Shown here in pieces: positions 4,793-50,451 of a stretch of DNA of 56,650 nucleotides. The stretch is taken from contig DRHS01000156.1 of NCBI GenBank assembly GCA_011053095.1, positions 1 through 56,650 on the forward strand, read 5' to 3'. How positions within the stretch are numbered: position 1 is the stretch's first letter; each line of letters starts with the position of its first letter. The translations under genes were made by a program, and so were the position numbers. The notes below the pieces were generated by a model. The model ran no database searches, was not told where the DNA came from, and saw only the letters and a list, made by a program, of their open reading frames with translations. The stretch comes from Bacteroides sp. GTDB lineage: Bacteria; Bacteroidota; Bacteroidia; Bacteroidales; SM23-62.

Positions 4793-6850
4793 ATGAGAAC
4801 GATTTTGGCCGGAATTCTTTTCCTGATGCCGATAGTTATATTGGGACAGGATGCAAAAATTTTAATGCACTGGGGATTTGAGGATGTCGAAAACCGAAAC
4901 CTGATTGAAGCATCAAGCGGTATTGCTGATACCATTGAGGGAAATTTCGATCCTGCTCCAGGGGTATTGGGACAGGGATTGCGTTTCGATGGTTTTACTA
5001 CATGTGTCAAAAGGAGCAGCATTGACAAAGCCTCAACCGGAGATGAGTTCACGGTTGAAGCCTGGGTTGCCCTCGGAAATTATCCCTGGAACTGGTGTCC
5101 TGTCCTGACCACAGAATCGAACGAAACAATGGGATACCGGCTCATGATAGGTCCTCTGGGACAGGCATCCTTTGAAGCTGCCATTAACGAACAATGGATC
5201 TCCTGCTCCAGCGAAACGGAAGCCCTTCCGTTAAGGAAATGGATACATATTACCGGTGTTTTTAAGGCTGATGAAAGCATGACACTCTATATTAACGGAG
5301 AACTGAAGGCTGAAAACAAGATCAACGGTTCCATCTCTGATCCCATGTACGACTGTACGATTGGTATGGTTGCAGCAGCTTCCAAACCCTCAGATATTCA
5401 CCGTACATGGGGAACCATTGCTGCATATTACGGGATAGATGGGATCCTGGACGAGATATCCGTCTTCGATATGGCCCTTACCCCAGATGAAGTGCTCAAA
5501 AGTTACAGCGAGAAAAATGTTCCGAAGGCAGATATTGCTCCCCGCAAATTACCTGACATAGAAGAGCATCCTGGCAGTTTTGGTGCATTTTATACCAAAC
5601 TAAAATATTATCCCGGCTGGGATGATCTCTGGCCGGTAGAACAGGATCCGGATATTGTGGTCTGTTTCGATAAATCGCCCATCAAACTCATATTCTGGCG
5701 GGGGATTCGATACGCTGCGTCATGGGTATCCGAGAACAATAACTGGATGAGTGACCAGAGCGTTGAAGCCTGGGAACATGGGGAAAAAGACAGAGAGGGC
5801 TGTTTTGAGCACATGCAGGACCGGCATTGCAGGTTTTCACATGTCAGAATCATTGAGAATACCGATGCACGTATTGTAGTTCACTGGAGGTACGCACCCG
5901 TCAGTGCTTATAACAATACCTGGCATCCTGATCCGAAAACAGGATGGGAATGCTGGATCGATGAATACTATTATATTTATCCCGATGCCACAGCCATCCG
6001 GAAGGTATCCTGGAAGAAAGGAAGCCTTGGCTATCCAAGGCAATTCCAGGAAACCCTGGCTTTGATTCATCCGGGACAAAAGATATCGGATTTGCTTGAA
6101 ACGGACTTTGCACTGGTAGGGGATTATGAAGGGAACACTGGCAAGCAATCCTTTGTTGAAGACCCGAATGTACCACCCTTCGGACCATTTAACTGGGACC
6201 AAAACCATGACTATACCATACAGCAATATGGATTTAAATCACAGCATAAACCCTTTATTTGTTTCGAACCAGGCAATAAAATATTTCTCCGGAACGGAAA
6301 ACTGGGTTCCTATGACATGGCGGGGGGCTGCAATCATTTTCCTGTGGGACAGGCCAGATGTGATGGACGAACTACCAGGATGTCCGACCGTCCTTCCCAT
6401 GCGACCTCTTTCCCGATCTCAGATCCGGTGATCCATGAGAAGGGGGACCGTTATTTCTGGAATGGCCTCTATGGGATGAATGATATGGATCTGACCGAAC
6501 TGACTGCATTTGGAAGATCCTGGGCATATGCACCCGAAGTATCTGTAAATGGATCCGGTTTTCACTCTGCCGGATACGACGGAAGTGAAAGATGTTACCA
6601 GATTGAGAACAGCGAGGGCAAAGCCGGTGAGCTCAAGATGACCCTCGCAGGCAGCAGTGACACACCTGTACATAACCCTGCCTTCTACATAAGAAACTGG
6701 AATGCCGATGGTGCAAGCGTGTTGGTAGACGGCAAGGAACTACAGGATTGCAAAACAGGGATTCATCATAAACTGGAGGGCAAAGATCTGATCGTATTTC
6801 TCAGGATGAAATCCAATTCCAATGTGATTGTAAGTATTAAGCCTGAATAA
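4793..6850 (+). CDS. Secreted LamG-domain protein with unassigned conserved C-terminal domain (paralogue 1)
   Basis: Signal peptide; LamG/concanavalin-like block (GDEFTVEAWVALGNYPWNW...MTLYINGELK...GILDEISVFDMAL); C-terminal domain FWRGIRYAASWV / CFEHMQDRHCRFSHVRIIENTDARIVVHWRYAP / WIDEYYYIYPDATAIRKVSWKKGSLGYPRQFQE / GQARCDGRTTRMSDRPS. Confidence 0.85.
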   Translation: MRTILAGILFLMPIVILGQDAKILMHWGFEDVENRNLIEASSGIADTIEGNFDPAPGVLGQGLRFDGFTTCVKRSSIDKASTGDEFTVEAWVALGNYPWNWCPVLTTESNETMGYRLMIGPLGQASFEAAINEQWISCSSETEALPLRKWIHITGVFKADESMTLYINGELKAENKINGSISDPMYDCTIGMVAAASKPSDIHRTWGTIAAYYGIDGILDEISVFDMALTPDEVLKSYSEKNVPKADIAPRKLPDIEEHPGSFGAFYTKLKYYPGWDDLWPVEQDPDIVVCFDKSPIKLIFWRGIRYAASWVSENNNWMSDQSVEAWEHGEKDREGCFEHMQDRHCRFSHVRIIENTDARIVVHWRYAPVSAYNNTWHPDPKTGWECWIDEYYYIYPDATAIRKVSWKKGSLGYPRQFQETLALIHPGQKISDLLETDFALVGDYEGNTGKQSFVEDPNVPPFGPFNWDQNHDYTIQQYGFKSQHKPFICFEPGNKIFLRNGKLGSYDMAGGCNHFPVGQARCDGRTTRMSDRPSHATSFPISDPVIHEKGDRYFWNGLYGMNDMDLTELTAFGRSWAYAPEVSVNGSGFHSAGYDGSERCYQIENSEGKAGELKMTLAGSSDTPVHNPAFYIRNWNADGASVLVDGKELQDCKTGIHHKLEGKDLIVFLRMKSNSNVIVSIKPE

Positions 6851-6858
6851 TTTATATC

Positions 6859-8904
6859 ATGAATATTATCTTCCTGGGTCTGCTTTGTTTATTGCCAGCT
6901 CTGCTTTCAGCACAGGAAAGTACCCCCCTGGTGCATTGGGATTTTGAGAGGGTTGAAAACAGGAACCTGCTTGACAAGTTTGGGAATTTATCCGATACAA
7001 TCGAAGGGAATTTCGAATTTGCAGAAGGGATATTGGGTCAGGGATTGCGGTTTGACGGCTTTACAACCTGTGTAAGGAGAGAAGGTTCAAAAAAAACATT
7101 GGGCCAGGAATTTACTATTGAAGCATGGGTAGCTCCGGGAAGCTATCCCTGGAACTGGTGTCCCGTATTAAGCACCGCATCAGCTGAGACCAAAGGATTC
7201 AGAATGTTGATGGGTCCCTTGGGACAAGCCTCTTTTGAATGTGCCATCGGGGAGCAATGGATAGGCTGTACCAGTGAGGAAGAGGCCGTAACGCTCAGGG
7301 AATGGACACAAATAATTGGGGTGCTCCGGTCCGGCGGCAAAATGGAAATATACGTCAATGGCAAGTTGGCAGGAAGCAACCAGGTAAACGCTGAGCTCAT
7401 CCATCCCCGTTCCGGCATATGTATAGGCATGGTAACCTCAGCGGAAAAACCTTCCGATATCCACCGTACATGGGGCACCGTCGCTTCATATTACGGGATA
7501 GACGGGATCATGGATGAAATAAAAATATACAACAAGGCCCTGTCTGGACAAGAGGTATGGCAGAATTTTGACAATTATAATATTCCTGTTGCGGATATCC
7601 CGGCTCGCAGACTGCCTGTAATTAAAAATCATCCTTCCCGGTTCGGGGCATATTATACAAAACTAAAATACTACCCTGGATGGGATAATTTATGGCCTGT
7701 AGGGGAGGATCCTGATATTGTTGTTTGTTTCGATCAATCTCCCGTCAAACTAATTTTCTGGAGGGGGATACGGTACGGCGCGTCCTGGGTAACTGAAAAC
7801 GGAAACTGGATGACGGATCAGAGTGTGGAAGCCTGGGAACATGGTGCCAATGACAGGGAAGGCTGTTTCGAACACATGCAGGACAGGCACTGCAGGTTCT
7901 CACATGTCAGGATCATTGAGAACACCGATGCCCGTATTGTCGTTCACTGGAGGTATGCCCCAACCAGTGCCAGTCTCAATACCTGGCGGCCCGATCCCAA
8001 AACCGGATGGGAATGCTGGATTGATGAGTATTATTATATCTACCCGGATGCTTCTGCGATCCGGAAAGTGTCCTGGAAAAAGGGAAGTCTGGGATATCCT
8101 CGTCAATTCCAGGAATCACTTCCCCTGCTCGCTCCGGGTATGGTAGTTTCTGACCTGCTGGAGAAGGAATATGCCCTGGTGGCCGATTACGATAATAGCA
8201 TGGACAAATCATCTTACCTTGAGGATCCGGAAAATTCTCCCTATGGTGCCTCGGCAACCAAACCCTATACCATACAGCAATATCAATTCAAGTCTGAGAA
8301 CAAACCCTATATTTTATTTGAACCAGGCAATGAAATGTGGCTCAGAAATGCTGGTCTTGGTGCCTATGACAAGGTCCAGGGTTGCAATCATTTTCCGGTC
8401 GGACAGGCACGTTGTGACGGGCGGACATCAAGGATATCGGACCGGCCTTCTTCCTTTAACGGCTTCCCGATTTCCGATCCCCCTGTAAATGAATACGGTG
8501 ACAGAAATTACTGGTGTGGAGTTTATGGCATGAATGAAATGGACATCCATGAGTTGTCAGATTTTGGAAGATCCTGGGCATATGCACCAGCACTATTGGT
8601 TCAAACCCCCGCCACAGAATCAAAAGGATACGACAGGAGCCAAAGATGTTATCAGCTTAGAAACAAGGATGGTGATCCGGGTAAAATCGAGTTCATGCTT
8701 GAAGGCAGCCAGGAATCACCCATACATAATCCGGCATTTTATATCAAGAACTGGAACGCTGAAAAGGTCCGGGTACTCATCGATGGCAAGGAGATAAAGA
8801 ATGCGAGGACCGGAACCGATCATACCCTTGAGGGTAGGGACCTTGTCGTTTTTTTGAATTTGGAAAGCAGGTCAAAATTAAATATCACCTTTTCCCCTGA
8901 ATAG
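6859..8904 (+). CDS. Secreted LamG-domain protein with unassigned conserved C-terminal domain (paralogue 2, tandem duplicate)
   Basis: Collinear with and highly similar to 4793..6850 along its length; same conserved blocks. Confidence 0.85.
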   Translation: MNIIFLGLLCLLPALLSAQESTPLVHWDFERVENRNLLDKFGNLSDTIEGNFEFAEGILGQGLRFDGFTTCVRREGSKKTLGQEFTIEAWVAPGSYPWNWCPVLSTASAETKGFRMLMGPLGQASFECAIGEQWIGCTSEEEAVTLREWTQIIGVLRSGGKMEIYVNGKLAGSNQVNAELIHPRSGICIGMVTSAEKPSDIHRTWGTVASYYGIDGIMDEIKIYNKALSGQEVWQNFDNYNIPVADIPARRLPVIKNHPSRFGAYYTKLKYYPGWDNLWPVGEDPDIVVCFDQSPVKLIFWRGIRYGASWVTENGNWMTDQSVEAWEHGANDREGCFEHMQDRHCRFSHVRIIENTDARIVVHWRYAPTSASLNTWRPDPKTGWECWIDEYYYIYPDASAIRKVSWKKGSLGYPRQFQESLPLLAPGMVVSDLLEKEYALVADYDNSMDKSSYLEDPENSPYGASATKPYTIQQYQFKSENKPYILFEPGNEMWLRNAGLGAYDKVQGCNHFPVGQARCDGRTSRISDRPSSFNGFPISDPPVNEYGDRNYWCGVYGMNEMDIHELSDFGRSWAYAPALLVQTPATESKGYDRSQRCYQLRNKDGDPGKIEFMLEGSQESPIHNPAFYIKNWNAEKVRVLIDGKEIKNARTGTDHTLEGRDLVVFLNLESRSKLNITFSPE

Positions 8905-8949
8905 CAGCATAGCTGGTTTTGAACAATAACCACAAAAAATCTTGATAGT

Positions 8950-11409
8950 ATGAAAGCAAATATGAATACAAGGCAGATCCGGACAGTAATGTTTGCAGTA
9001 GGAATTGCGATTAGTTTAAATGTTACTGCCCAACTGAAGATTCCTGAGCGGGGATTTGTAAGTTCTGAACCGGGCGAAACATGGGAACAGGGATTGATCT
9101 GCGGCAATGGTACCATCGGAGCAAACATAATGAGTCGTCCACTGGATGAAACCATCATCTTCACCCATGAACGGTTGTTTCTCCCCAGTGGAGCGCCCCT
9201 TATGCCTCCAGACAATGGGTACAGGCTTTTTGAGATCAGGGATTTAATTGACAGGGGACTCTATTCACAGGCCACCCAATTAGCATTCGACTTCTCTACC
9301 CAAAAGAGTTTCATGTATCCGGATCCTTTTGTACCAGCTTTTGACCTCAATATCCGGATGAATACCTCTGAAGAAATTACCGATTACATGCGGTCCGTAG
9401 ATTTCCAGACCGGTGAAACAACGGTACACTGGGCTGATAGAAATGGAGTATACGAACGCCGGATGTTTGTTTCCCGGGCAGATGGAATGGCTGTATTACT
9501 GATCACTGGTCCCGGAAAAGGATCTGTTAATTGCAGCTTGAAACTCAAAACAAGAGAGCCCAGTAATATGTTAATTGAAAAACAGGTAGCAGCCTCTGCC
9601 CGTAAATTTGCCAGCCATGTTACAGATGTGACAGTGTCCGCAGATAAGACGACACTGACCTATCAGAACAGTTATCCCATGGCTTACCCGGGAAGCCTTC
9701 ATGCTCTTGAGGGAATGGCACTTGTGAAACAAATAAATGGCCAGGCAAACACAGACGGAGAAAGCCTTATCATTACCGGAGCAGATGAAGTACTGTTACT
9801 CCTGGATATCAAATTGATATATGATCCGGATCAACCACAACTGGAGAAGACAAAAATGTCTCTTTCTGAAGTATCGGGTAATTATGATGAGCTTCTCAAG
9901 CGTCATGCTAAAATACACGGGGAATTATTCAACCGTATGTCCCTGGATCTCAGGGGAGGTAAGGATCATAAATTGACAACTGAGGAGTTACTGGAAATAA
10001 GCAGTACTGAAAAGTTAAATAACGCCCTGGTCGAAAAAGAATTTGACGCCGGGCGGTATAACATAATCTCTTGTACCGGGGAACTTCCCCCAAACTTGCA
10101 GGGGATTTGGGCCGGGACCTATGTACCGGACTGGGCAAGTGATTTTACCCATAACGGAAACGTGCCCTCTGCCATTGCCAGTATGCTCATGGGCAACATG
10201 CCCGAGCTTATGCTGGCATATACCTCCTATATCGAATCAATTGTCCCTTACCTTGAAATCAATGCCAGGAATATGTTTGGCGCCAGGGGTATAGTACTTC
10301 CCTCCCGTTCAACAACCAATGGTTTCAACAATGCCCTGGCCCCCAGGTTTGCAGGTGGTTTCTGGGTAGGAGGTGCAGCCTGGGCCGCTCATTTCTTTTA
10401 TGATTATTATCTCTACACTGGAGATCGAGAATTTCTTATTGATCATGCTTTGCCCTTTATGGAAAAAGCGGCCCTGTTCTTTGAGGATTACCTGTACGAA
10501 GGTCCGGATGGAAAATATATTTTCTCTCCCACCCAATCACCTGAAAACACCCCGGGCAATACAAAATCACAGGGCAGTTTTAATGCTACCATGGATGTAG
10601 CCGCAGCCAAGGAACTGTTGGGCAATCTCATCTCTGTTTCGACAGAACTTGGGATGAACCAGCAAAAGTTACCCGTCTGGGAAGGCATGCTGGAGAAAAT
10701 GCCTGAGTATATGATCAACCAGGAGGGTGCAATCAAGGAATGGATAACCCCGAAACTTGAGGATAATCTTGGCCACCGGCATTCCTCTCAGCTCTATCCA
10801 TTATACGACGGAATACCGGGGGAGATCGCAAATGATCCTGAACTCCAGGCTGCCTTCAGAAAAATCATCGAAATCAAACTCGACCGGCATTGGAATCCGG
10901 ATAAATCAGGATTCATGTCATTTGGATTGGTGCAATTGGGACAGGCAGCAGCGAGCCTGGGTGAAAATGAACTTGCCTACAGGTGCCTGGTCCAGCTGGC
11001 CAACCGTTATTGGCTGAATAACCTGGCATCCATGCACAATCACAAACGGCTTTTTAACATGGATATCAGCGGGGGAATGCCTGCGGTGCTTATTAAAATG
11101 CTGGCTGCTTCAGAACCTGGAAAGATCACACTGCTTCCAGCCTTGCCTGCTGCATGGCCCGAAGGAGCTATTGAAGGCGTATTGTGTCGTGGACAGATTG
11201 AAATCAAACACCTTGAATGGGATGGACAGGGTATAAAGGTCACGCTGCATTCAAAGAGGGATCAACAGATCCTTCTGGAAATCCCTGATGAGATCAAAAA
11301 GATTACCCTGAAAAAGGGCAAAGCCAAAGTAGGGGATTCGGGTTTCATGAACAGCCGCTTGTTGTCACTACCTGCCATGCAGGACATTTCGTTGAAAATA
11401 ACATTATAA
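8950..11409 (+). CDS. Divergent GH95-like glycoside hydrolase
   Basis: Signal peptide; N-terminal domain (WEQGLICGNGTIGANIMSRPLDETIIFTHERLFLP), toroid with FSPTQSPENTPG, AIKEWITPKLEDNLGHRHSSQLYPLYDG, LLPALPAAWPEGAIEGVLCRG. Similar order to GH95 but altered motifs. Confidence 0.8.
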   Translation: MKANMNTRQIRTVMFAVGIAISLNVTAQLKIPERGFVSSEPGETWEQGLICGNGTIGANIMSRPLDETIIFTHERLFLPSGAPLMPPDNGYRLFEIRDLIDRGLYSQATQLAFDFSTQKSFMYPDPFVPAFDLNIRMNTSEEITDYMRSVDFQTGETTVHWADRNGVYERRMFVSRADGMAVLLITGPGKGSVNCSLKLKTREPSNMLIEKQVAASARKFASHVTDVTVSADKTTLTYQNSYPMAYPGSLHALEGMALVKQINGQANTDGESLIITGADEVLLLLDIKLIYDPDQPQLEKTKMSLSEVSGNYDELLKRHAKIHGELFNRMSLDLRGGKDHKLTTEELLEISSTEKLNNALVEKEFDAGRYNIISCTGELPPNLQGIWAGTYVPDWASDFTHNGNVPSAIASMLMGNMPELMLAYTSYIESIVPYLEINARNMFGARGIVLPSRSTTNGFNNALAPRFAGGFWVGGAAWAAHFFYDYYLYTGDREFLIDHALPFMEKAALFFEDYLYEGPDGKYIFSPTQSPENTPGNTKSQGSFNATMDVAAAKELLGNLISVSTELGMNQQKLPVWEGMLEKMPEYMINQEGAIKEWITPKLEDNLGHRHSSQLYPLYDGIPGEIANDPELQAAFRKIIEIKLDRHWNPDKSGFMSFGLVQLGQAAASLGENELAYRCLVQLANRYWLNNLASMHNHKRLFNMDISGGMPAVLIKMLAASEPGKITLLPALPAAWPEGAIEGVLCRGQIEIKHLEWDGQGIKVTLHSKRDQQILLEIPDEIKKITLKKGKAKVGDSGFMNSRLLSLPAMQDISLKITL

Positions 11410-11412
11410 AAA

Positions 11413-13047
11413 ATGAAAAAATCATTTTTATTCTTCTCTATTGTGGCAATCCTTTTGGGGGCTTGCCAAAGAACGAATTTGGCCCAGGATATCTCTAAAG
11501 AAAATGAACCGGGTTTTGTTGGATCGGGTACCAAGGGACTTCATGGGTATATCTGGTATAATGCCCCCCGGCCACCTGCCGGATTCGGGGCGGGAGTTGG
11601 TTTTTACTCGGCTGTATGGCCGCTGATTGATAAGCCTCTTGCAAATTTTCAGATCGGTCTGCCAAGTACCTGGATAAGTCCCGATAATTCAGATAACAAG
11701 GATACACCCCTCTGTCCGGTAGGCACCTATGCAAGGGACAATTGGGATGAGAGAGGGCCTACCTATGGAAGTGTTTTCCAGACTGTTGAAGGGGGACTGG
11801 GCTATTGGGCCGGGAACAGGTTCCGTTACGGGCCTCCCAAATTCAGTATGAATGCCACCTCCAGCTGTTATGATTTTGAAATTGCTTCTCCGGGCTGGTC
11901 TTTTTTCTATAGTAAGACAGCCCTGCCCGATGATAAAATGGGAATTGCCCAACTCAGCAACAGGGTACTGGTTCCGCCGGATGGACTTACATTTCAGGGG
12001 GATCCCAAGGGTCTCTTTATGGGTTATACTTGGATGGCTTTGCCTTTTACGGATGCCAGGGAAGGTCCACCGCCCACGGGGGATCAAAGTTGGACATTGT
12101 TCCTGAATGCATTCAATTTTAAGGGTCCCCTTGCCTATTATATACCGGAGACCTGGAGCAAAATTTCGAAGAATTATGAGTTTGATTATGGCAGGGGATT
12201 GGATGCACGGTCGGGAGTGACGGGAGGAGGAGCGATGGAAATCAACACGGTTCCACATTTTGAGGGAAAGGATGCCGAGGGTGTGACCTGGGTTAAAATC
12301 CCCCGCCTGCAATTTCCTGTAGACGAGCAGGGAAGAACCATCCTGGTGCAGGATGTGGTATATTACTCAAAGCAGGCTCTTTATGATCCATTTAAGGCCT
12401 GGAGGGATGGGGGTAAAGCCTGTACCGGGGCCTTTGATGAAACTGGCAGCATGAAACCTGAATTAAATACAGGTGAGGTCAGATATGACCAGGGCGGAAT
12501 TGAACTCAGTGGAATAGACAATATCCTGAAAACAGCGATTTTCTCCTCAAATGTTTTCGGCTTACAGTGGGAAGACAGCCCGCTGAGTCCGAAGGGCCAA
12601 TTCCCCCAATATTTTAAAGAGCAGGGAAATGTGCGGATAGCTGTATCTGCATCGGAAGTTCCCGATGAGACCCAGATAAAGTCTAAAGAGTTCGCCCTTG
12701 CCGGCAATGCAGAACCATATACTTCTCCTGATACAGGAGCATGGACGAATCCAGGACCGGCACTCGGGCCATTCAAGGTAAGCCTTGTAGATGGATCGGA
12801 GGTTACCTATTACTGGTACCGTTTTGTTGACCAGCCTTCCTTCCAGCAATTTGACTGGAGCGATGAGGAGAAAGCCAAACTTCAATCTTTTGTAGAGAAA
12901 ATTCATGCAAGCTGGTCAATCGACAGGGATTATATGCCTCCACCTGCGATTGGTGAACTGGTCACACTGGATCCGGCCCTAATCCTGACACCTCCCCCTG
13001 GATTCGAAACAGGTTATGTGCCCATTGTTACAGGCCAGGAAAAATAG
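11413..13047 (+). CDS. Putative lipoprotein of unknown function
   Basis: MKKSFLFFSIVAILLGAC lipobox; long Trp/Gly/Pro-rich soluble protein with no family I recognise (GLHGYIWYNAPRPPAGFGAGVGFYSAVWPL...). Confidence 0.75.
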   Translation: MKKSFLFFSIVAILLGACQRTNLAQDISKENEPGFVGSGTKGLHGYIWYNAPRPPAGFGAGVGFYSAVWPLIDKPLANFQIGLPSTWISPDNSDNKDTPLCPVGTYARDNWDERGPTYGSVFQTVEGGLGYWAGNRFRYGPPKFSMNATSSCYDFEIASPGWSFFYSKTALPDDKMGIAQLSNRVLVPPDGLTFQGDPKGLFMGYTWMALPFTDAREGPPPTGDQSWTLFLNAFNFKGPLAYYIPETWSKISKNYEFDYGRGLDARSGVTGGGAMEINTVPHFEGKDAEGVTWVKIPRLQFPVDEQGRTILVQDVVYYSKQALYDPFKAWRDGGKACTGAFDETGSMKPELNTGEVRYDQGGIELSGIDNILKTAIFSSNVFGLQWEDSPLSPKGQFPQYFKEQGNVRIAVSASEVPDETQIKSKEFALAGNAEPYTSPDTGAWTNPGPALGPFKVSLVDGSEVTYYWYRFVDQPSFQQFDWSDEEKAKLQSFVEKIHASWSIDRDYMPPPAIGELVTLDPALILTPPPGFETGYVPIVTGQEK

Positions 13048-13078
13048 TTCTTCTAATTGATAATGAACATTAACAAAC

Positions 13079-13318
13079 ATGAATAACAGGATCCTGAGAA
13101 TCCTCGGATTATTTATTTCTGTAAATCTCACCATTGGTCTGGCATTTGTATCTGCCCAGGTCTTAACTGTCGGTGAGCATCCGGTAGAGTTACGATTGGC
13201 AGCGGTTAGCAACAATATGGCTCCTGCCTTCCGGTTCCTACTTAATTGGCACCAGTGGTTAGGCAATGTTCGCAAAGAGTTTACATACGAAGGCAAAGCA
13301 ATAGAGCTGAAATTTTAA
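13079..13318 (+). pseudogene. Small 79-aa ORF with signal peptide; possible truncated N-terminus of a larger secreted enzyme (GH31-like?)
   Basis: MNNRILRILGLFISVNLTIGLAFVSAQ resembles a signal peptide, then VLTVGEHPVELRLAAVSNN, reminiscent of the start of a GH31-type N-terminal domain; ends abruptly after 79 aa. Confidence 0.35.
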
Positions 13319-13339
13319 TGCAATGCATGTTGCATTAAA
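13314..13339. promoter_or_regulatory. Perfect 10-bp inverted repeat TTTAATGCAA-TGCATG-TTGCATTAAA
   Basis: Read directly; overlaps the TAA stop (13316-13318) of the 79-aa ORF, about 70 bp upstream of the next CDS. Confidence 0.6.
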
Positions 13340-13406
13340 GACCGGAAGTTTGGGTAACTGCCTGCTCATTACCTTTTATGAAAAAAGAACTGGTATTGCC
13401 CGTTAA

Positions 13407-16091
13407 ATGTTAAACCTGAATAATATCAATAAAATGATAAACAAATTCGTAAATCATATTTATAAAGCCGGAACCCTTTTCCTGGCACTTATGATTATCC
13501 CGGTATTTTTCTGTATTGGACAGGCAAATCAGACATCCTTGCTGAAATCATGGGACCAGTATAAAGTCCGGAAAAATGAAACCCGTTTCGGGGGATTAAC
13601 CTGGCGGACCGTAGGACCCTCATTCAATGGTGGTAGGGTCGAATCAGTTTCTAGTCCACCCGGTCAACCTGGAACCATATATGCAGGTTACGGTTCAGGG
13701 AATCTCTGGAAAACTACCGATCATGGCTTGCACTGGGATCCTGTCTTTGATGACCAGGCGGCTTATGGCATCGGGGATGTCGAGGTGGCTCCATCTGACG
13801 GGGAAGTAGTTTGGCTCGGTACAGGAGAGAACCTGAGGGCAACAAGGGGATTCACCATTCCCGGAACAGGTGTGTTTCGATCTGGTGACGGGGGAAAAAC
13901 ATGGGTCCACAAAGGATTATCCGACACCTACCACATTGCCCGTATCCTTGTGGATAATGAAGATCCCGGAAAGGTATACGTGGCCGCTCTGGGTCATTTT
14001 TGGACCAGGAACGAGGAAAGAGGGCTTTTCAGGACAATTGACAGTGGCAAAAATTGGAAAAAGATCCTTTATATTTCAGACAGCACAGGGATCAGTGATG
14101 TAGTAATTCACCCGGAAAACAAAGATATAATTTTCGCTGCCTCATGGGATTGTACCGGAAAAGTTGCCGGTGAAGAAACGGGTATATTCAGAAGCATCGA
14201 CGGTGGTATTAAATGGACACGATTATCGGGGGGATTTCCGGCAGGAAAAGATATCAGCCGGATAGGGTTGGCCATCTCCTCCGGCCCTCCCTATAAACTA
14301 TATGCCCTCGTTGACAACCGGAGCAAACCCGATACCGTGGAGGAGGGGGTGATCGGGGCTGAATTATACAGGTCTGAAAACATGGGAGATAGCTGGATCA
14401 AAACACATGAAGATGATCTTCCAATCTATGCCGGTTTTGGATGGGCTTTCGGGGATCTTCGCGTTTCTCCTGACAATTCAAACGAGGTCTACCTGCTTGG
14501 TGTAAAGATGGTTCATTCTACAGATGCCGGGAAAACCTTCGATTACATCTGGGATCCGGTTGATCACCTTTTTCCCAATGCCGGAGTTTATTTGCATCTT
14601 GACCAGCATGATCTCTGGATAGACCCGGATGATCCCAACCATCTTATTCTGGGGAACGACGGAGGAGTATTTGTCTCCTATAACCGTGGCAGAACCTGGC
14701 TCCATTATAACAATATGCCGGTCGGTGAGTTCTATTGCATTTCCGCCGATTCCCTTAACCCCTACAATGTATATGGCGGGACCCAGGATAATTCCTCTGT
14801 ATTTGGCCCTGTTAACCTTTCCCTGGATGACGGATACGCCGATAACTGGGAATATGTATGGGTAGATCCCTGGTCCGGCGGAGACGGGTTTGTCACCCTG
14901 GCTGATCCGCTTGATCCGAATATAAAATATTACGAAGCCCAGATGGGAGCTATTCAACGTAAAAATATGTCAACCGGAGAAAATGTTTCGATCAGACCTT
15001 CGCTTGAAGAGGAGGATGAAAAGATCAGGTATGAGTGGCAGACACCCTATTTTATTTCCCACCATAATCCTTTAACCCTTTATTTCGGGGGAAGTAAAAT
15101 ATTTAAAAGCCTTAACCGGGGGGATGACTGGAACTGTATAAGCCCTGACCTTACAGAGTCTACCAATACCGACCGAAAGAGCAGGGGGGTGACAGAACTC
15201 TCTGAATCTGTCATAAAACCAGGCTTATTGTATGCCGGGACCAATCTTGGCATGGTATGGATAACGCAAAACGACGGGGTTACCTGGCGCGAGCGATCGG
15301 GCAATTTGCCGCATTGTTATGTCAAAGACATAGAACCTTCATCACATGAAGATTCGTTAGTATATATAGTACTCTCGGGAATAGAAAAGGATGATTTCAC
15401 ATCCTATGTATTTGTATCTGAAAATTATGGAATGGACTGGAAAAGCATTTCTTCAGGACTGCCGGACGAGCCTGTGAATACTCTCCTGGAGGACCCGGGA
15501 AACCCAGATATACTCTATGCCGGGACTTTCCGTTCCGTCTACGTGTCGGTTGATCGTGGAAAACACTGGGAGATGCTGGGGACAGGAATGCCTGCCTGTT
15601 TTGTGCAGGATCTGATCATCCAGCCTCAGGCCGGAGAACTCATAGCTGCTACCCACGGGAGGAGTATTTTTGTGATGGATATCCGGGGCATCCGGCAGTA
15701 TTTTGACAGTACATCGGTAGAAGATAAAAATGCCTTCTTTGATATTCCCATGGCAAAATTGCCCGGTTCCAAGGACTACAGAAGTGATTGGGATTTGCGA
15801 AGCCGCATAAATGCAAAATTTACATTCTATCTGATAAAAGATCAACCGGTTGAACTGACCGTTACTGATCCCGGCGGGGAATCCGTATTTCATAAAAAAT
15901 GGAAAGGGAATACGGGGTTTAATGAATTGGATTGGGACCTGGTAAAGGAGGTTAAAAAAGGAAAATCTGTCTACGCCCTGCCGGATATCACCTTTACCGA
16001 TTCTGGAGATTATAAGGTTGTATTGTCAGGAAAAGGATTCAGCCTGGAGCAGAACCTGATGATTACGGAAGCTGGTAATTATGATAAATAA
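13407..16091 (+). CDS. Secreted BNR/Asp-box beta-propeller protein (sortilin/VPS10-like)
   Basis: Many Asp-box motifs: FRSGDGGKTWVHKG, FRTIDSGKNWKK, FRSIDGGIKWTRL, VSYNRGRTWLHY, ITQNDGVTWRERSG, VSVDRGKHWEML. Start may be 13434. Confidence 0.88.
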   Translation: MLNLNNINKMINKFVNHIYKAGTLFLALMIIPVFFCIGQANQTSLLKSWDQYKVRKNETRFGGLTWRTVGPSFNGGRVESVSSPPGQPGTIYAGYGSGNLWKTTDHGLHWDPVFDDQAAYGIGDVEVAPSDGEVVWLGTGENLRATRGFTIPGTGVFRSGDGGKTWVHKGLSDTYHIARILVDNEDPGKVYVAALGHFWTRNEERGLFRTIDSGKNWKKILYISDSTGISDVVIHPENKDIIFAASWDCTGKVAGEETGIFRSIDGGIKWTRLSGGFPAGKDISRIGLAISSGPPYKLYALVDNRSKPDTVEEGVIGAELYRSENMGDSWIKTHEDDLPIYAGFGWAFGDLRVSPDNSNEVYLLGVKMVHSTDAGKTFDYIWDPVDHLFPNAGVYLHLDQHDLWIDPDDPNHLILGNDGGVFVSYNRGRTWLHYNNMPVGEFYCISADSLNPYNVYGGTQDNSSVFGPVNLSLDDGYADNWEYVWVDPWSGGDGFVTLADPLDPNIKYYEAQMGAIQRKNMSTGENVSIRPSLEEEDEKIRYEWQTPYFISHHNPLTLYFGGSKIFKSLNRGDDWNCISPDLTESTNTDRKSRGVTELSESVIKPGLLYAGTNLGMVWITQNDGVTWRERSGNLPHCYVKDIEPSSHEDSLVYIVLSGIEKDDFTSYVFVSENYGMDWKSISSGLPDEPVNTLLEDPGNPDILYAGTFRSVYVSVDRGKHWEMLGTGMPACFVQDLIIQPQAGELIAATHGRSIFVMDIRGIRQYFDSTSVEDKNAFFDIPMAKLPGSKDYRSDWDLRSRINAKFTFYLIKDQPVELTVTDPGGESVFHKKWKGNTGFNELDWDLVKEVKKGKSVYALPDITFTDSGDYKVVLSGKGFSLEQNLMITEAGNYDK

Positions 16092-17661
16092 GATATTAAT
16101 AATAATGCTCCTGGCCGGTTTAACTGCCTGCACTGATTCTCTGGGAAGGAAGGCCCAAAAGGGCACTCACCTGAACGTGCCTGTACTGGATCCGGATTCC
16201 TTTAAAAAATACATTGATAATTTTAACAATACTGATGAGGAGTTGTATGCGCAATATTACCCAAATGATATAGCCTGGGATTTCCTCAAAAACAACATTC
16301 CGTTTTTTGATTGCCCGGACAAGGAGCTGGAGCGGATCTATTATTTCAGGTGGTGGACATACCGAAAGCATATTAAGCTGACTCCGGATGGATTTATCAT
16401 CACGGAATTCTTGCCGGATGTAAGCTGGTCCGGGAAACATAATTCTATCTCTTGTCCGGGTGCACATCATTTCTATGAGGGCCGCTGGCTTCATAATCCA
16501 CGGTACCTGGACGATTATGCAGTCTTCTGGTTCAGAAAGGGTGGAAGTCCACGGAGCTATAGCTTCTGGGCTGCAGATGCCATCTTCAACTGTTCGATGG
16601 TAAAAGGGAATATGGATATGGCGGGTGAGCTTCTTCCAGATCTGGTAAATAATTATTATGAATGGGAGAAGAAAAGGCTGGAACCCGACGGACTCTTCTG
16701 GCAGATAGATGACCGGGATGGGATGGAAGTATCGGTTGGGGGAAGTGGAAAACGGGCTACCATTAACAGTTACATGTATGGTGATGCGAAAGCCATCTCG
16801 GAAATAGCCCTTTTAAATGGCCAACCGGATATCGTGGAAACATTCTCCGCAAAGGGATCTCATTTAAAGCAACTTGTTCTGGATAAATTATGGGATGAGG
16901 AAGCTGGATTCTTTAAAACACTTTCAAGGGATACAAATGAATTGACCGACGTCAGGGAACTTCACGGCTATACCCCTTGGTACTTCAATCTTCCGGAAAA
17001 GGACGCGGGCTATGAAACAGCCTGGGAACATATCATGGATAAAAGTGGTTTCTATGCACCTTATGGTCTAACATCGGCTGAGCAGAAGCATCCGGGATTC
17101 AAAATATCCTACCAGGGACATGCATGCCAGTGGAACGGTCCCAGCTGGCCATTTGCTACTTCCGTCACACTGACCGCGATGGCCAATCTCCTCAATAATT
17201 ATGAGCAGGATATAGTCAGTAAAGGTGATTATTTTGAACAATTGAGGATATATGCCGGGAGCCATAAACTGAAGAAGGATAATGGAGAACTGGTTCCCTG
17301 GATAGATGAGAACCTGGATCCCTATACAGGGGAATGGTTATCAAGAAAAATGTTAATGCCGGCAAGTAAAGAAAGGGGGAAGGATTACAATCATTCCACT
17401 TTCAACGACCTGATTATTACGGGATTAGTAGGGTTACGGCCCAGAATGGATGAAATTATCGAGATCAATCCCCTCGTCCCCGGGGATACCTGGGATTGGT
17501 TCTGCCTGGATAATATAAAATACCATGACCACATCATAACCATAGTATGGGACAGAAATGGTAGCAGATATAACCTTGGTAAGGGCCTTATGATCCTTTC
17601 CAATGGTAAATTAATAGCAAAAACAAGGCATCTTGATAAACTAAAGGGAACACTGAACTAA
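16081..17661 (+). CDS. MGH1-like / GH63-like (alpha/alpha)6 glycoside hydrolase
   Basis: Lipoprotein-like signal MLLAGLTAC; YYFRWWTYRKHIKLTPDGFIITEFLPDVSWSGKHNSISCPGAHHFYEGRWL, DDRDGMEVSVGG, GHACQWNGPSWPFATSVTL, DYNHSTFNDLIITGLVGLRP. Overlaps the upstream stop by 11 bp. Confidence 0.8.
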   Translation: MINKILIIMLLAGLTACTDSLGRKAQKGTHLNVPVLDPDSFKKYIDNFNNTDEELYAQYYPNDIAWDFLKNNIPFFDCPDKELERIYYFRWWTYRKHIKLTPDGFIITEFLPDVSWSGKHNSISCPGAHHFYEGRWLHNPRYLDDYAVFWFRKGGSPRSYSFWAADAIFNCSMVKGNMDMAGELLPDLVNNYYEWEKKRLEPDGLFWQIDDRDGMEVSVGGSGKRATINSYMYGDAKAISEIALLNGQPDIVETFSAKGSHLKQLVLDKLWDEEAGFFKTLSRDTNELTDVRELHGYTPWYFNLPEKDAGYETAWEHIMDKSGFYAPYGLTSAEQKHPGFKISYQGHACQWNGPSWPFATSVTLTAMANLLNNYEQDIVSKGDYFEQLRIYAGSHKLKKDNGELVPWIDENLDPYTGEWLSRKMLMPASKERGKDYNHSTFNDLIITGLVGLRPRMDEIIEINPLVPGDTWDWFCLDNIKYHDHIITIVWDRNGSRYNLGKGLMILSNGKLIAKTRHLDKLKGTLN

Positions 17662-17695
17662 ATAGTAATGAACTAAATAATAGATCAAATCTACC

Positions 17696-20392
17696 ATGAG
17701 AAATAATTTGTTTATACCTGGTATATTGTTTACTGCCTTTTCAGCAACATTTTGTCTGTTTAATAGCCCGGTGGCTTATTCACAAACTCCAGGTTTCTAT
17801 GCCTATTATACGAGGCTTGGTTTTGAGGACGGAAACAATACAGGGAAATATGCCGATATAGTCATCAATGTAAACCAACTCGGAGAATTTGTTTTTAGCC
17901 GGGAATACAGTTATTTGCCATATCTGCAAATTGGAAACTCCAAACATTTTGTTGACAAGATAATTCCAATTATTGGTGACGGACCGGCTGAAAGGCCCGA
18001 CAGAATAAATAAATGTTCATCTGTAAGAGTGATTGAGAACACATCCGATAAAATTATCATACACTGGAGATATGCCCCGGACCTGAACAGTGAAAATTTT
18101 ACAGATTTTAAGAGTAGTTATGGTGGGGATATTGGGAAATATTTTGCCGATTATGTAGATGAATATTTCACAATAAATCCTGATGGTTCTGTTATAAGAA
18201 CAGTCAAAAAGGGCTGTTATTCACTCGATGAGTGGAATGATCCTATGAATGCGACTACCCAGGCATTTGAACTTACATCCAAAGGTATTGTCAACAAAAG
18301 CACTACAACGGCAAAATTGCAGTCCATTCCTGGTGATCCGGTTAAGGGAACTGCCATTAAAAACGGTGGTAATAAATCCCCGGCTGCGTGGTGGAGGTTT
18401 GACGAAGGATTAAGTAAAAATTACAAGCTTACAAAAGAGAGTATTCAAGGCCATGATTGTGTCATCTCCGGTATGGATAGCTATTGGAGGGCAGGAGTGT
18501 CCGGAACAAGTTTGTCTTTTGATGGTTATACCAATAAGGTAAGCCTGCCTGCTTCCCAGGTACCTGAGATAAGTGGTGATTTCACAATCGAAGCCTGGAT
18601 CGCGCCCCAGGAATATTCATGGAACTGGTCAGGTATTGTTGATCATGACCAGGATAAGCGAGCCGGATATTCCCTGGGAATAAACCATTTGGGTCAGATC
18701 GGATTGCATGCATATATAGCGGGGGAATGGCAGGGATTGATCAGCAGTGAAAAGGTGGACCTGTTAAAATGGACACTGGTCACCGGTGTTTATGAAAAAA
18801 CAAAAGGATTTTCTATTTATTTCAATGGAGTATTAATGAATTCCAAGCCTGTATCGGGGGAGATATTGGATGCAAAAGAGCTGGACCTTTATATTGGCAT
18901 GGCTCATGAGAAACAATATCATTGGGCTTTTGAACGTAACGTCACAACATCATTTCTTTCCAATATGGTTTTCAGTGGATTGATCGATGAGGTCAGGATA
19001 TTTGACAGGGCCCTTGCATCATCAGAAATATCCACTGATTATCAGGCATTTAAACCTGACAACGTGCAACCTTTGCAGTATTGGGTTTTACCCGCCGGAC
19101 CAGAAAAGGCAGGCGGTTTTGGAGCTGCCTATACGAAACTTGAATGCAGTCCTGAATGGGATGGACTATGGCGTGTTGGTGAGTATACGGATATCCTTGT
19201 TTCTTTTGATGATAAACCCAGCCGCTTTGTATTCTGGAGGGGCACAAATTATCTTCCCAGCCTGGTTACAAAACCTGGTGCTGAAGGCATCTGGAATAGT
19301 GACCAGGGACCTGAAGATTATACAGACGAATGCTTTGAGCATATGTCAGATAAAATTTGCCGGTTCTCTCATGTTCGGCTAATTGAGAATACCGATGCCA
19401 GGGTAGTTGTTCACTGGCGCAATGCAAGCGTTAGTATTTCTTATGAGTGGCTGCAGGAAGATGAGAACGGATGGGGCTTATGGACCGATGAGTACTGGTA
19501 TATATATCCGGATGCTGTATCTGTACGGTATCAGGTGAGCGGACGTCTGGCCGATTTTCACGACATACAGACACAGCAAAATGAATTACTCAGCCAGCCC
19601 GGAACAAGACCGGAAGACATTGTTCCTTTTGATGCGATCACTCTTTCTAATTTGGAAGGGGAAACCGAGACATGGAATTACTCTGTTGGAAAGACCTTCA
19701 GGAACGGGGCAGCGATTGGTGGGAATAAAAATCTTGTCTATATGAATCTCAAATCCGAATACAAACATTTTAATATTGGTGAGGTCGGTTCAAATTGGCG
19801 CCCCTATAGTCAATGGCAATCTATGAGGCTTGGACCGGGATTATCGAGATATAATACATGGAACCATTATCCTTTCGGAATTTTGCCCAGTGATGGTACC
19901 GTAAGAACCGGAACAGACCGGGTAAGCAGTTCCTGCCTTGGCACATTAGATGGATTGCATCATCTTCTGGATGATGGCCGGACGGAGGCATATAATATTT
20001 ATGGGATGACCAATCTTCCTGCTTCTGATTTGAAGATGCTTAACCGTTCATGGAACAGCGCAGCTGCAATTACAGATTTGAACCGATGTGAAAGCAGTGG
20101 ATATGACAAGAGACAAAGGGCATACCTTATTAATAAAGAATCAGACGGATTTTCATTCAGTCTTCAAGGTTCTGAGACAGAGCCTATTGTGAATCCTTGT
20201 TTTGTAATTAAGGACTGGGGCAGCCAGTCTTTGGCAGACCTGGAAATCAATGGGGAAAAGATAATCCCGGACAGAAATTTCCGCCAGGGTATCATAAGGG
20301 ATACGGACGGCACAGAAACGATGATCATCTGGATCAGGCAAGAATCACTACAACCGGTAAATTATAAAATCCAGTCCAGCGCCAGCTTATAG
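17696..20392 (+). CDS. Secreted LamG protein with internally duplicated unassigned domain (paralogue 3)
   Basis: N-terminal copy (FYAYYTRLGFEDG...SSVRVIENTSDKIIIHWRYAP...YVDEYFTINPDGSVIRTV), central LamG (GDFTIEAWIAPQEYSWNWSG...FSIYFNGVLMN...GLIDEVRIFDRAL), C-terminal copy (FGAAYTKLECSPEWDGLW...FVFWRGTNYLPSLV...CRFSHVRLIENTDARVVVHWRNA...WTDEYWYIYPDAVSVRYQV). Confidence 0.85.
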   Translation: MRNNLFIPGILFTAFSATFCLFNSPVAYSQTPGFYAYYTRLGFEDGNNTGKYADIVINVNQLGEFVFSREYSYLPYLQIGNSKHFVDKIIPIIGDGPAERPDRINKCSSVRVIENTSDKIIIHWRYAPDLNSENFTDFKSSYGGDIGKYFADYVDEYFTINPDGSVIRTVKKGCYSLDEWNDPMNATTQAFELTSKGIVNKSTTTAKLQSIPGDPVKGTAIKNGGNKSPAAWWRFDEGLSKNYKLTKESIQGHDCVISGMDSYWRAGVSGTSLSFDGYTNKVSLPASQVPEISGDFTIEAWIAPQEYSWNWSGIVDHDQDKRAGYSLGINHLGQIGLHAYIAGEWQGLISSEKVDLLKWTLVTGVYEKTKGFSIYFNGVLMNSKPVSGEILDAKELDLYIGMAHEKQYHWAFERNVTTSFLSNMVFSGLIDEVRIFDRALASSEISTDYQAFKPDNVQPLQYWVLPAGPEKAGGFGAAYTKLECSPEWDGLWRVGEYTDILVSFDDKPSRFVFWRGTNYLPSLVTKPGAEGIWNSDQGPEDYTDECFEHMSDKICRFSHVRLIENTDARVVVHWRNASVSISYEWLQEDENGWGLWTDEYWYIYPDAVSVRYQVSGRLADFHDIQTQQNELLSQPGTRPEDIVPFDAITLSNLEGETETWNYSVGKTFRNGAAIGGNKNLVYMNLKSEYKHFNIGEVGSNWRPYSQWQSMRLGPGLSRYNTWNHYPFGILPSDGTVRTGTDRVSSSCLGTLDGLHHLLDDGRTEAYNIYGMTNLPASDLKMLNRSWNSAAAITDLNRCESSGYDKRQRAYLINKESDGFSFSLQGSETEPIVNPCFVIKDWGSQSLADLEINGEKIIPDRNFRQGIIRDTDGTETMIIWIRQESLQPVNYKIQSSASL

Positions 20393-29125: not shown

Positions 29126-29151
29126 CCTCGAAATCAAAATATCATAGAGCA

Positions 29152-30312
29152 ATGAGTGAATACACAAGTTATGAAAGAGTAAAAGCCGCTCTGGAGCACC
29201 GTGAACCGGATAAAATTCCTTTCGATCTGGGAGGAACCATGGTTTCTGGTATAAATATTAATGCTTTACACGCCTTAAAGAAATACCTGGGACTTCCCGG
29301 TGAGGCTGAAATCAAAGACAGGGTAACCCAGATGGCATCAACGGGAGAGGACGTCATTGAACGGTTGGGCGTAGATATTAAAAATGTCTCTCCAAGATCT
29401 TCACCACAGGGAATGTTAAAGGAACTCGGAGTCCGGGAAGGATATATTAGAATTGAAGACGAATGGGGGATGCGTTGGAGGATGCCAGTTCAAAACGGAC
29501 ATTATTATGACCTGTATTACAGTCCCCTGAGAGATGCAACAAGTATTTCAGATATTGAGAAATTTTCCTGGCCTGATGCACTTGATACAGAAAGATACAG
29601 CGGCATGAGAAAAGAGGCGAATCAAATTGTTTTTGAAGAGCAGAAGGCATATGTTCTAGGCAGGATGAGTTCCGGGATGTGGGAGCATGCCATGTGGATG
29701 AGAGGTTATGAGCAATTCTTTATGGATATGATGATGAATCCCGGAATTGTGCAGGCAATTATGGAACAGATCCTCGCAATAAAAATGCAATATTGGGAAA
29801 GAGCACTGGAGGAAGTAGGTGAAAATGTGATGGTAGTCTCCTGTGCCGATGACCTGGGAATGCAGACAGGCTTACTGGTGGAACTTGACACCTATAAAAA
29901 GCAGATATGGCCATACCATAAAAGATTGTTCGATTTCATTAAGTCAAAAGCGAAATCAAAGGTTTATATATTTTTTCATAATGATGGAGCCATTATGGAA
30001 ACAATACCTCTCCTGATAGAAGCCGGCGTGGATATCCTTAACCCTTTCCAGGTAAACTGCACCGGGATGGATACAAAAAAATTCAAAAAAGAGTACGGCA
30101 ATCAACTTACCATATGGGGGGGCAGTTGTGACAACCAGACCATTATGCCATTTGGTACTCCACAGCAGGTGAGGGATGAAACCAAAAGAAGGATAGATGA
30201 CCTGGCAGCCGGGGGTGGATTTATTTTCGCACCCATTCACGTTATCCAGGCAGGTGTCCCACCGGAGAATATAATGGCCTGGTGGGAAACGCTGAATGAA
30301 TTCAATTATTAG
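29152..30312 (+). CDS. URO-D/MtaA-like protein (corrinoid methyltransferase-type superfamily)
   Basis: ORF listed from 29107, but MSEYTSYERVKAALEHREPDKIPFDLGG at 29152 is the typical start. CADDLGMQTGLLV, FFHNDGAIMETIPLLIEAGVDILNPFQVNCTGMD, GGGFIFAPIHVIQAGVPPENIMAWWETL. Confidence 0.88.
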   Translation: MSEYTSYERVKAALEHREPDKIPFDLGGTMVSGININALHALKKYLGLPGEAEIKDRVTQMASTGEDVIERLGVDIKNVSPRSSPQGMLKELGVREGYIRIEDEWGMRWRMPVQNGHYYDLYYSPLRDATSISDIEKFSWPDALDTERYSGMRKEANQIVFEEQKAYVLGRMSSGMWEHAMWMRGYEQFFMDMMMNPGIVQAIMEQILAIKMQYWERALEEVGENVMVVSCADDLGMQTGLLVELDTYKKQIWPYHKRLFDFIKSKAKSKVYIFFHNDGAIMETIPLLIEAGVDILNPFQVNCTGMDTKKFKKEYGNQLTIWGGSCDNQTIMPFGTPQQVRDETKRRIDDLAAGGGFIFAPIHVIQAGVPPENIMAWWETLNEFNY

Positions 30313-48276: not shown

Positions 48277-50451
48277 ATGACAAAGAAAATCATTTATGCA
48301 ATTACTGCGCTAAGCTTTCTGGTAAGCCTTTCAACACTTGCACAGGGACCTCCGGGCTATACTGAATGTGAACCGGAACAAAACTTCACCGAACCCTATA
48401 ATGTGGCTTTTGGAAATGCGGGCAGCTATAAATACCTGTTTAACCAGACCGGCCCCTTCCTTTTTTCCCGCGGACAGTTTTTCGGGGGAAGAAGTCCGGG
48501 TGATCCGGAAAAATGCTGGTGCCAGAAAATCAGAGGAATGGACGTTGATACTCCATCAGCCAGGCTGGCCGGGGCATTTGCAGTTCTGAAAAACCATATT
48601 GAAGGCGGGGACATCCTGTCGGTACGGGAAATACTTGAACAGGACTCCATAATCCAGGCCAATATCTCAGCAATAGGGATCCGGAAAAAGATCGTTGCAC
48701 AGGCTTTTGATCTTGTGGCTGCCTATGAAAAAAATATGGGTCCCCTGTTCAGGAATGAGGCCGGCACAGTTCTTCCTAGGAAACAGGAGGGTGGCAAAGA
48801 AATCCATTATGCCCTTTTTTATATACAGGATGCCATCACAAGATCGTACTGTTCCGCCAATCTGGAAGCGTTCCCGGAGGTGTACCAGGGTGCATATTTC
48901 AGGACATCGGAGTACTTTCCGGGTAAGGTTGGTCCTCCGGAAGATCCTTCAAATGTCAACATAGTCAAAGTAAATGCAACCCAGGCACCCAACTGGGGCA
49001 CACCAATCTATTTCCACCGCGATGCTCCGTCTCGCCGGCCAACCGGTACTTATGTGGCACCAGGATCCATAGTAAAAATAAAATTCCCCTCAAAGGTTGT
49101 AAACAAGGGATTTTCAATCCGGATCGGCACGCATTACTGGGATCTGAGATACAGGAACCGCATGGCAAGACTGGATCGGGCGACTATCATTTACCCTGTT
49201 AATAATGAGACAATTAGTGTGGGATCTCCCCTGGGTGGCAATATCTATTTTGAAGTCCCCGAAGGTCTGGATGAGGGTGAAATCTCCCTGGAAATAACAG
49301 GTGCAGTGCGTGCTCCCTTCTTCTCCGCAAAAAGTTCCCATAAAACCAGCCTGGAAGAATGGCGGAATATTGAACGCCACCATCCGGGTGCCTGGGCTGA
49401 CTTTGAATCCGATAAATTTTTAATGCAGGTGCCGACAAGCTGGATTTATGATTTTGATGACCCGGCGACCATGTTGAGGGATTATGATATTGCTATGGAT
49501 GTTATTAATGATTTGCTGGGTAAACCCAGGATCCACGGAACCCATACCATGTTCAGGCATGTAGATATTATTATGCGTGAGGGTTTCCATACACCGGGGT
49601 ATCCTATGATAAATGTTACCTATGATCCTGACGACCCGACTGACGGAAAAGGCACACAAACAATATTGGGAAGGCCCCAATACCAGCCCTGGCAGATTTT
49701 CCATGAACTGGGTCACTCTCATTATCCTTCATTTTTTGTGAACGAAGTAGAATCCATTGTCAATTTACTCCATGTTGCAATTGCAAACCAGGGTTTTGAG
49801 ATGGAACTTGATTCCGCTTTTGGCTGGTCGATTGTCAACCGGTATGATATTACCCTTGATGTAGCCGCCACCACATTGATGATAAGCGAACCTTTCAGAA
49901 AGAATGAACCCTTGGGCTGGGACCGGATGGCATACCAGCACCGGGGTCATGGGAAATACGTGGATGTTGCCCGCCTGTTCGGCTGGGAAGCAATCGGCAA
50001 AATGTATAAGAAAATAAGCGAGGACTATAACCGGGGGATCGTTATTAAGAAAACCGAACACCCTACCGATGACCGGATTTTGCGCATGTCTGTTGCTGCC
50101 GGGGCGGACCTGCGCCCATTATTGCATTTTTGGGGAAGGCCGCCTGAAGATAATGTATCGCTGGGAGACTCCATTAATACTGCCGGTCTGCCTGCATCGC
50201 AACGCATTTATGATGCACTGGAGCATTACAAAACCATTGTGCCCAAAAACCTGAAAAAGTGCCAATTGCACGCCAAACTTATGTTTCCAGGGGAGGGCCA
50301 TCCATCCCATGAAGGTCATGACCTGGAGCGGGATCATGCCTTTGCCTATGATAATTGGAACAGATCCTATGCAAAAGAAACACTGGATCAGATTGAAAGG
50401 ATACAAAACCTGTACTATCCTGACGGCCGTCCAGATGAAGATCAGGAATAA
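48277..50451 (+). CDS. M60-like metallopeptidase (enhancin/mucinase-like)
   Basis: QPWQIFHELGHSHYPSFFVNEVESIVNLL fits HExxH-x(8-28)-E; flanked by LMQVPTSWIYDFDDPATMLRDYDIAMDVINDLLG and HVDIIMREGFHTPGYPM; signal peptide present. Confidence 0.82.
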   Translation: MTKKIIYAITALSFLVSLSTLAQGPPGYTECEPEQNFTEPYNVAFGNAGSYKYLFNQTGPFLFSRGQFFGGRSPGDPEKCWCQKIRGMDVDTPSARLAGAFAVLKNHIEGGDILSVREILEQDSIIQANISAIGIRKKIVAQAFDLVAAYEKNMGPLFRNEAGTVLPRKQEGGKEIHYALFYIQDAITRSYCSANLEAFPEVYQGAYFRTSEYFPGKVGPPEDPSNVNIVKVNATQAPNWGTPIYFHRDAPSRRPTGTYVAPGSIVKIKFPSKVVNKGFSIRIGTHYWDLRYRNRMARLDRATIIYPVNNETISVGSPLGGNIYFEVPEGLDEGEISLEITGAVRAPFFSAKSSHKTSLEEWRNIERHHPGAWADFESDKFLMQVPTSWIYDFDDPATMLRDYDIAMDVINDLLGKPRIHGTHTMFRHVDIIMREGFHTPGYPMINVTYDPDDPTDGKGTQTILGRPQYQPWQIFHELGHSHYPSFFVNEVESIVNLLHVAIANQGFEMELDSAFGWSIVNRYDITLDVAATTLMISEPFRKNEPLGWDRMAYQHRGHGKYVDVARLFGWEAIGKMYKKISEDYNRGIVIKKTEHPTDDRILRMSVAAGADLRPLLHFWGRPPEDNVSLGDSINTAGLPASQRIYDALEHYKTIVPKNLKKCQLHAKLMFPGEGHPSHEGHDLERDHAFAYDNWNRSYAKETLDQIERIQNLYYPDGRPDEDQE

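Follow-up and report, generated by a model that had tools for sequence, protein, structure and literature searches.

Three genes for related secreted proteins lie on the plus strand of the window, the term used here for the whole 56,650-nucleotide stretch of DNA that was analyzed. The first, p1 (4793..6850), encodes 685 aa and is followed after 8 bp by a second copy, p2 (6859..8904), of 681 aa, while the third copy, p3 (17696..20392), encodes 898 aa. Each has an ATG start and a signal-peptide-like N terminus at these coordinates, and the three open reading frames called in the first-pass annotation are real. They belong to a plus-strand run of genes in the order GH95, sulfatase, DPP-IV-type S9 peptidase, p1, p2, GH95 (8950..11409), a 544-aa secreted protein that we call the partner (11413..13047), VPS10/BNR, MGH1-like GH, and p3. 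More sulfatases, GH95, GH127, GH78, GH29, GH31, GH43, and an M60-like gene follow p3. Two large BNR/Sortilin-VPS10 repeat proteins, encoded at 13407-16091 (plus strand) and 20397-23033 (minus strand), flank the MGH1-like GH and p3, and relatives of these repeat proteins also adjoin genes of the p1-p3 family at two other loci (L035 and L036).

All three proteins combine a LamG module (Laminin_G_3, PF13385) with a larger domain, referred to below as the new domain. After its signal peptide, p1 carries LamG at 5036..5494 (residues 82-234; E=4.8e-17) and the new domain at 5537..6847 (residues 249-685), and p2 has the same arrangement with LamG at 7102..7557 (residues 82-233; E=2.5e-18) and the new domain at 7600..8901. 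In p3, an extra N-terminal stretch at approximately 17768..18232 aligns to domain positions ~6-163 and is a degenerate half copy of the new domain that has lost the candidate catalytic residues described below. The p3 LamG module (18521..19033; residues 276-446; E=5.4e-24) is therefore internal, between this half copy and the full domain (19076..20389). With PF13385 scores of 62.9, 67.1, and 85.5 bits for p1, p2, and p3 against a Pfam gathering threshold of 27.6, the earlier assignment of a LamG-like module to all three proteins was confirmed. LamG is normally a binding module of the ConA-like type, and the similarity covers this one N-terminal or internal module only and is uninformative on the main domain. 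Matches to NCBIfam TafC and Pfam Sialidase-N were restricted to the LamG region and fell below cut-off, and both candidates were rejected.

The new domain spans ~437 residues and is homologous in p1, p2, and p3. Over the whole proteins, p1 is 63% identical to p2 and 33% identical to p3, and a BLASTP comparison of the p1 and p3 domains alone gives E = 2e-64, which excludes chance similarity. Five sequence blocks had been listed as common to the three proteins. FWRG, CRFSHVR[IL]IENTDAR[IV]VVHWR, and DEY[YW]YIYPDA...R are indeed present in all of them, but the NHFPxG block reads NHYPFG in p3 and the RxxDRxS block fails there (DGTVRTGTDRVS vs DGRTTRMSDRPS). The view that the large domain lies outside known families held up well: neither Pfam nor NCBIfam gave a match over it, nor one above cut-off in other members, and PDB chains searched by sequence gave no match even with a profile of 102 sequences. 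No solved or named relative was found, and literature searches on the family were likewise without result.

An AlphaFold2 model of the new domain, built from a 102-row alignment, reached a pLDDT of 95.1 and a pTM of 0.94. It consists of a supersandwich followed by a C-terminal beta-domain of ~100 residues. Foldseek comparison against the PDB returned, at a probability of ~1, galactose mutarotases, the supersandwich regions of GH38 and LacZ, and an Agrobacterium alginate lyase, with E values down to 7.9e-9, TM scores of 0.27-0.39, and identities of 6-11%. As modeled, the new domain belongs to the galactose-mutarotase-like superfamily as a distant relative: it shares the predicted supersandwich but differs by its extra C-terminal beta-domain. 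The fold comparison proposed in the first-pass annotation thus yields a superfamily, although the TM score is at most 0.39 to every solved structure.

Membership in the characterized families of this fold is not supported. GalM (aldose 1-epimerase) catalysis uses His/His/Asp together with a C-terminal Glu base, and the 102 copies have no conserved Glu past domain position 313 and none in the last 120 residues. For GH38, p1-p3 have neither a profile match nor the N-terminal metal-binding catalytic barrel. PL4 rhamnogalacturonan lyases are secreted, and their supersandwich is catalytic by itself; the PL4 domain RhgB_N (PF09284), however, has no match to p1-p3 at E<10, PL4 is absent from the best 50 fold matches of the new domain, and 149 genomes of near relatives gave one weak match. 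In most glycosidases the supersandwich plays an accessory part, being non-catalytic in GH38, LacZ, and GH31, and it is catalytic in some families only, so that the fold is compatible with a binding role of the new domain as well as with an enzymatic one.

A scan of GTDB genomes identified 176 sites encoding the new domain, from which 76 loci were kept. The 102 aligned copies come from at least nine bacterial phyla, with record titles that name Bacteroidota, Aminicenantes, Acidobacteriota, Planctomycetota, Verrucomicrobiota, Ignavibacteriota, Armatimonadota, Hydrogenedentota, Sumerlaeota, and TA06. The spread is patchy (10 of 393 genomes in the order of the source organism and 2 of 396 sampled from its phylum), and more than one family gene occurs in 18 of the 76 loci. 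A single Planctomycetota genome has up to 19 family matches, some of which are fragments or half copies. The source genome itself encodes two further full-length members on another contig (C217), again amid sulfatases. In the tree, in which phyla are intermixed, p1 and p2 form one clade while p3 and both C217 genes fall in other clades, and the five copies of the source genome represent four deep subfamilies. This placement of p3 and the C217 copies rules out a recent local tandem triplication as the origin of the three genes. Many copies per genome together with deep paralogous subfamilies resemble the expansion of a glycan enzyme. A viral origin was also rejected, as PHROGs matches were confined to the LamG region and the one match below E = 0.001 in a BFVD fold search was to a large protein of a chlorovirus, with a TM score of 0.32.

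Ten large or divergent members searched against Pfam showed essentially LamG alone and no fusion to a known catalytic domain, and domain-only copies of ~480 aa occur without any other catalytic domain. One Armatimonadota locus (L082:7422-8627) encodes a 402-aa family protein next to a full-length copy; it lacks domain positions ~178-326, the middle third, which contains the NHxP motif.

Polar positions with absolute conservation across the 102 sequences include D287, E325, E339, D343, R360, R366, Y396, and H515 in p1 numbering (D39, E77, E91, D95, R112, R118, Y148, and H267 in domain numbering). Essentially every copy has E325, E339, R360, Y396, and H515 unchanged. Remote Planctomycetota subfamilies, which score ~130-210 bits, retain E77, E91, D95, R112, and Y148, while H267 cannot be safely aligned in part of them. 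The nine N-terminal half copies show a different pattern. They retain D39, R55, Y59, D95, S101, and R118 (D287, R303, Y307, D343, and R366 of p1 among them) and mostly E143, D150, and R155, but position 77 is P or V in eight of the nine, with the glutamate corresponding to E325 in the remaining one, R360 (R112) and Y396 (Y148) occur in none, and at least six lack E91. Positions common to full-length and half copies are probably structural, and those lost in half copies would be the best catalytic candidates. E325, E339, R360, and Y396 are kept in remote subfamilies and mostly lost in half copies and would thus form a candidate catalytic site. This pattern of conservation points to the polar cluster as catalytic, but the invariant residues could instead bind a structural metal or a ligand.

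The main rival to an enzymatic role is that these are non-catalytic glycan-binding or scaffold proteins, in which LamG and the supersandwich capture or display substrate for the enzymes of neighboring genes. The usual behavior of LamG and the accessory role of the supersandwich in glycosidase classes matched by Foldseek agree with this explanation, as do the persistence of degenerate half copies across phyla as apparent structural domains and the position that the new domain can take behind a separate putative catalytic domain in fusion proteins. Strict invariance of two Glu, an Arg, a Tyr, and a His across 102 sequences is, however, beyond what is usual for binding domains, and four of these five residues follow the pattern of retention and loss just described. 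The existence of domain-only proteins also counts against it. We therefore regard a purely binding role as somewhat unlikely and prefer a catalytic one.

The surrounding genes indicate what such an enzyme might act on. As previously claimed, sulfatases and fucosidases are close by, with five sulfatases, three GH95, and one GH29 in the window. The proximity of sulfatases is weakened as evidence because the 5-Mb source genome has 126 sulfatase (PF00884) matches and ~1.4 would be expected per window. By this count the organism is a specialized degrader of sulfated glycans. Across the 76 loci, the recurrent neighbors are the GH95, GH78, GH29, GH2, and GH106 families, sulfatases, and SSF symporters, and Aminicenantes loci have a common gene order of SSF-PfkB-FeADH-family gene-ZnADH. 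Two uroporphyrinogen-decarboxylase-like (URO-D) genes at 29107-30312 and 52051-53166 are oddly placed within the glycan locus of the window and may encode corrinoid methyltransferases.

Some of these neighbors bear on whether the new domain could be a polysaccharide lyase that cleaves a uronic-acid polymer by beta-elimination with Tyr, His, and Arg, as supersandwich PL4-type rhamnogalacturonan lyases do. The invariant Y396, H515, and R360 would suit such chemistry, PL4 offers a precedent for the fold, and GH78 and GH106 rhamnosidases are common neighbors. In Bacteroides timonensis, a gut isolate (L069), the family gene comes immediately after a set of genes for uronate catabolism, SSF-UxuA-RraA-like-UxaC-SDR. 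This operon, however, is found at 1 of the 76 loci, and RhgB_N was not found in the source genome. Another difference from PL4 is that neither family contig of the source genome encodes an unsaturated-uronide hydrolase (GH88/GH105), though five strong ones are encoded elsewhere in that genome. This absence disfavors a lyase that produces Delta-4,5-uronides, and with two invariant Glu in the new domain, hydrolysis would be preferred to lysis. Of the two options "hydrolase or lyase" offered in the first-pass annotation, the second is weakened, and we consider it quite unlikely.

The partner gene between the second GH95 gene and the first BNR/VPS10 gene introduces a second unassigned family, with no match in Pfam. 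Its relatives are found close to genes of the p1-p3 family at ~10 loci. In two cases they form the N-terminal part of a protein that continues with LamG and the new domain, one of 1232 aa from Bacteroidota (L056) and one of 1145 aa from Planctomycetota (L064), the extra part of both proteins being a member of the partner family. Elsewhere, relatives are joined to a domain carrying the motif AGQSNMEG, which by its sequence reads as a SASA-type esterase. The AlphaFold2 model of the partner has a pLDDT of 82, and neprosin entries take the top four places among its PDB matches (E 3e-6 to 8e-6), with weak TM scores by target of 0.37-0.47 and an eqolisin lower in the list. Across 25 partner sequences, two glutamates (E126 and E276) never vary, and both lie on strands. 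Neprosin is a glutamate-class prolyl endopeptidase whose catalytic pair is E188 and E297 (PMC9343461). The partner is ~290 aa longer than mature neprosin and has no detectable sequence similarity to it, nor a profile match, and its predicted neprosin-like fold is accordingly a lead toward a neprosin-type glutamic peptidase, not a family assignment.

Other peptidase genes are found with the family. The gene 36 bp upstream of p1 encodes the DPP-IV-type S9 peptidase (PF00930 + PF00326; 2459..4756, plus strand), a recurrent neighbor with 10 homologues in 1.04 Mb of family loci against a background of ~0.9 per Mb across 26 host genomes (~101 DPPIV_N matches of at least 100 bits in ~118 Mb). The source genome has three strong DPPIV_N matches in 5 Mb. 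This enrichment has a Poisson P of ~4e-8; since L023 and L051 are near-copies and L015 was counted twice, the count was reduced from 10 to seven independent loci in a second test, which gave ~4e-5. Aminopeptidase P (M24) and M1 genes lie upstream of a family gene on C217, and the window also encodes an M60-like protein of the enhancin/O-glycopeptidase family (48277..50451, plus strand) with an intact HELGH motif. An ornithine-cyclodeaminase-like gene is present at 30486-31508 of the window. The combination of such a gene with DPP-IV and a family gene recurs in five other loci, four of which also have serine dehydratase, and this suggests that amino-acid catabolism is tied to the family locus.

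M60-like enzymes are O-glycopeptidases that act with PUL glycosidases (PMC11992087, PMC7518263). Like the mucin-processing PUL BT4240-50 with its M60 O-glycopeptidase (PMC11992087), the window encodes glycosidases together with a glycoprotein peptidase; in contrast to it, sulfatases, GH95, and GH127 are abundant in the window, and neither the new family nor LamG is reported in PMC11992087. The DPP-IV, aminopeptidase P, M60-like, and neprosin-like neighbors and the two fusions point to glycoproteins at least as much as to polysaccharides. The new domain might itself be a peptidase or glycopeptidase that uses its two invariant Glu as a pair, in the manner of neprosin and the eqolisins, and both the association with proline-directed peptidases and the neprosin-like fusion are compatible with this idea. 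Its own fold matches, however, fall among carbohydrate-active supersandwich proteins rather than glutamic peptidases, and its context is one of LamG and glycosidases, which makes a proteolytic role for the domain very improbable.

The reading we favor, at about even confidence, is that the new domain, built on its supersandwich, supplies the catalysis in a new family of secreted enzymes that act on glycans, probably by hydrolysis. Under this proposal, the enzyme would work in the periplasm or at the cell surface after export, tethered to its glycan by LamG. The two invariant glutamates, E325 and E339, would carry catalysis, assisted by R360, Y396, and H515. The enzyme would open or trim glycans beside sulfatases and exo-glycosidases (GH95, GH29, GH78, GH127, and GH31), while the neprosin-like, DPP-IV, and M60-like peptidases, being proline- or glycoprotein-directed, would attack the protein part. 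From the glycan and peptidase neighbors, the likely substrate class would be proline-rich glycoproteins that are sulfated or fucosylated, for example those of algal cell walls or mucin-type material. Several points run against the favored reading: the low TM scores to solved structures, a peptidase link that is statistical and found mostly in the p1 clade, the many family loci with no peptidase neighbor, and the Bacteroides timonensis locus, which points to uronate catabolism instead.

The earlier interpretation of these three proteins as enzymes is therefore partly supported. A new family of polysaccharide-active enzymes had been proposed; the domain is unassigned, its predicted fold is of a carbohydrate-active type, and its conserved polar cluster looks catalytic, but "polysaccharide" is too narrow a term for the likely targets. 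Judged from its fold, spread, and gene neighborhood together, the family is probably a new group of enzymes for dismantling polysaccharides or sugar-coated proteins.

The presence of GH127 and GH95 close to proline-directed peptidases would fit hydroxyproline-rich algal wall glycoproteins, our hypothesis for the substrate, a class proposed earlier for uncultured sediment bacteria and one whose digestion pathways are poorly known (PMC4454575). More speculatively, and with a fairly low probability, a new glycosidase class and a sometimes-fused bacterial neprosin-like endopeptidase may together define loci that digest sulfated (hydroxy)proline-rich glycoproteins across at least nine phyla. The family described here is widespread and secreted, and it has no name in the searched family libraries, no solved sequence relative, and no known activity. 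If its members are enzymes, they would add a catalytic supersandwich family to the carbohydrate-active enzymes, and the neprosin-like fusion makes testable how sediment and gut bacteria may digest heavily glycosylated proline-rich proteins.
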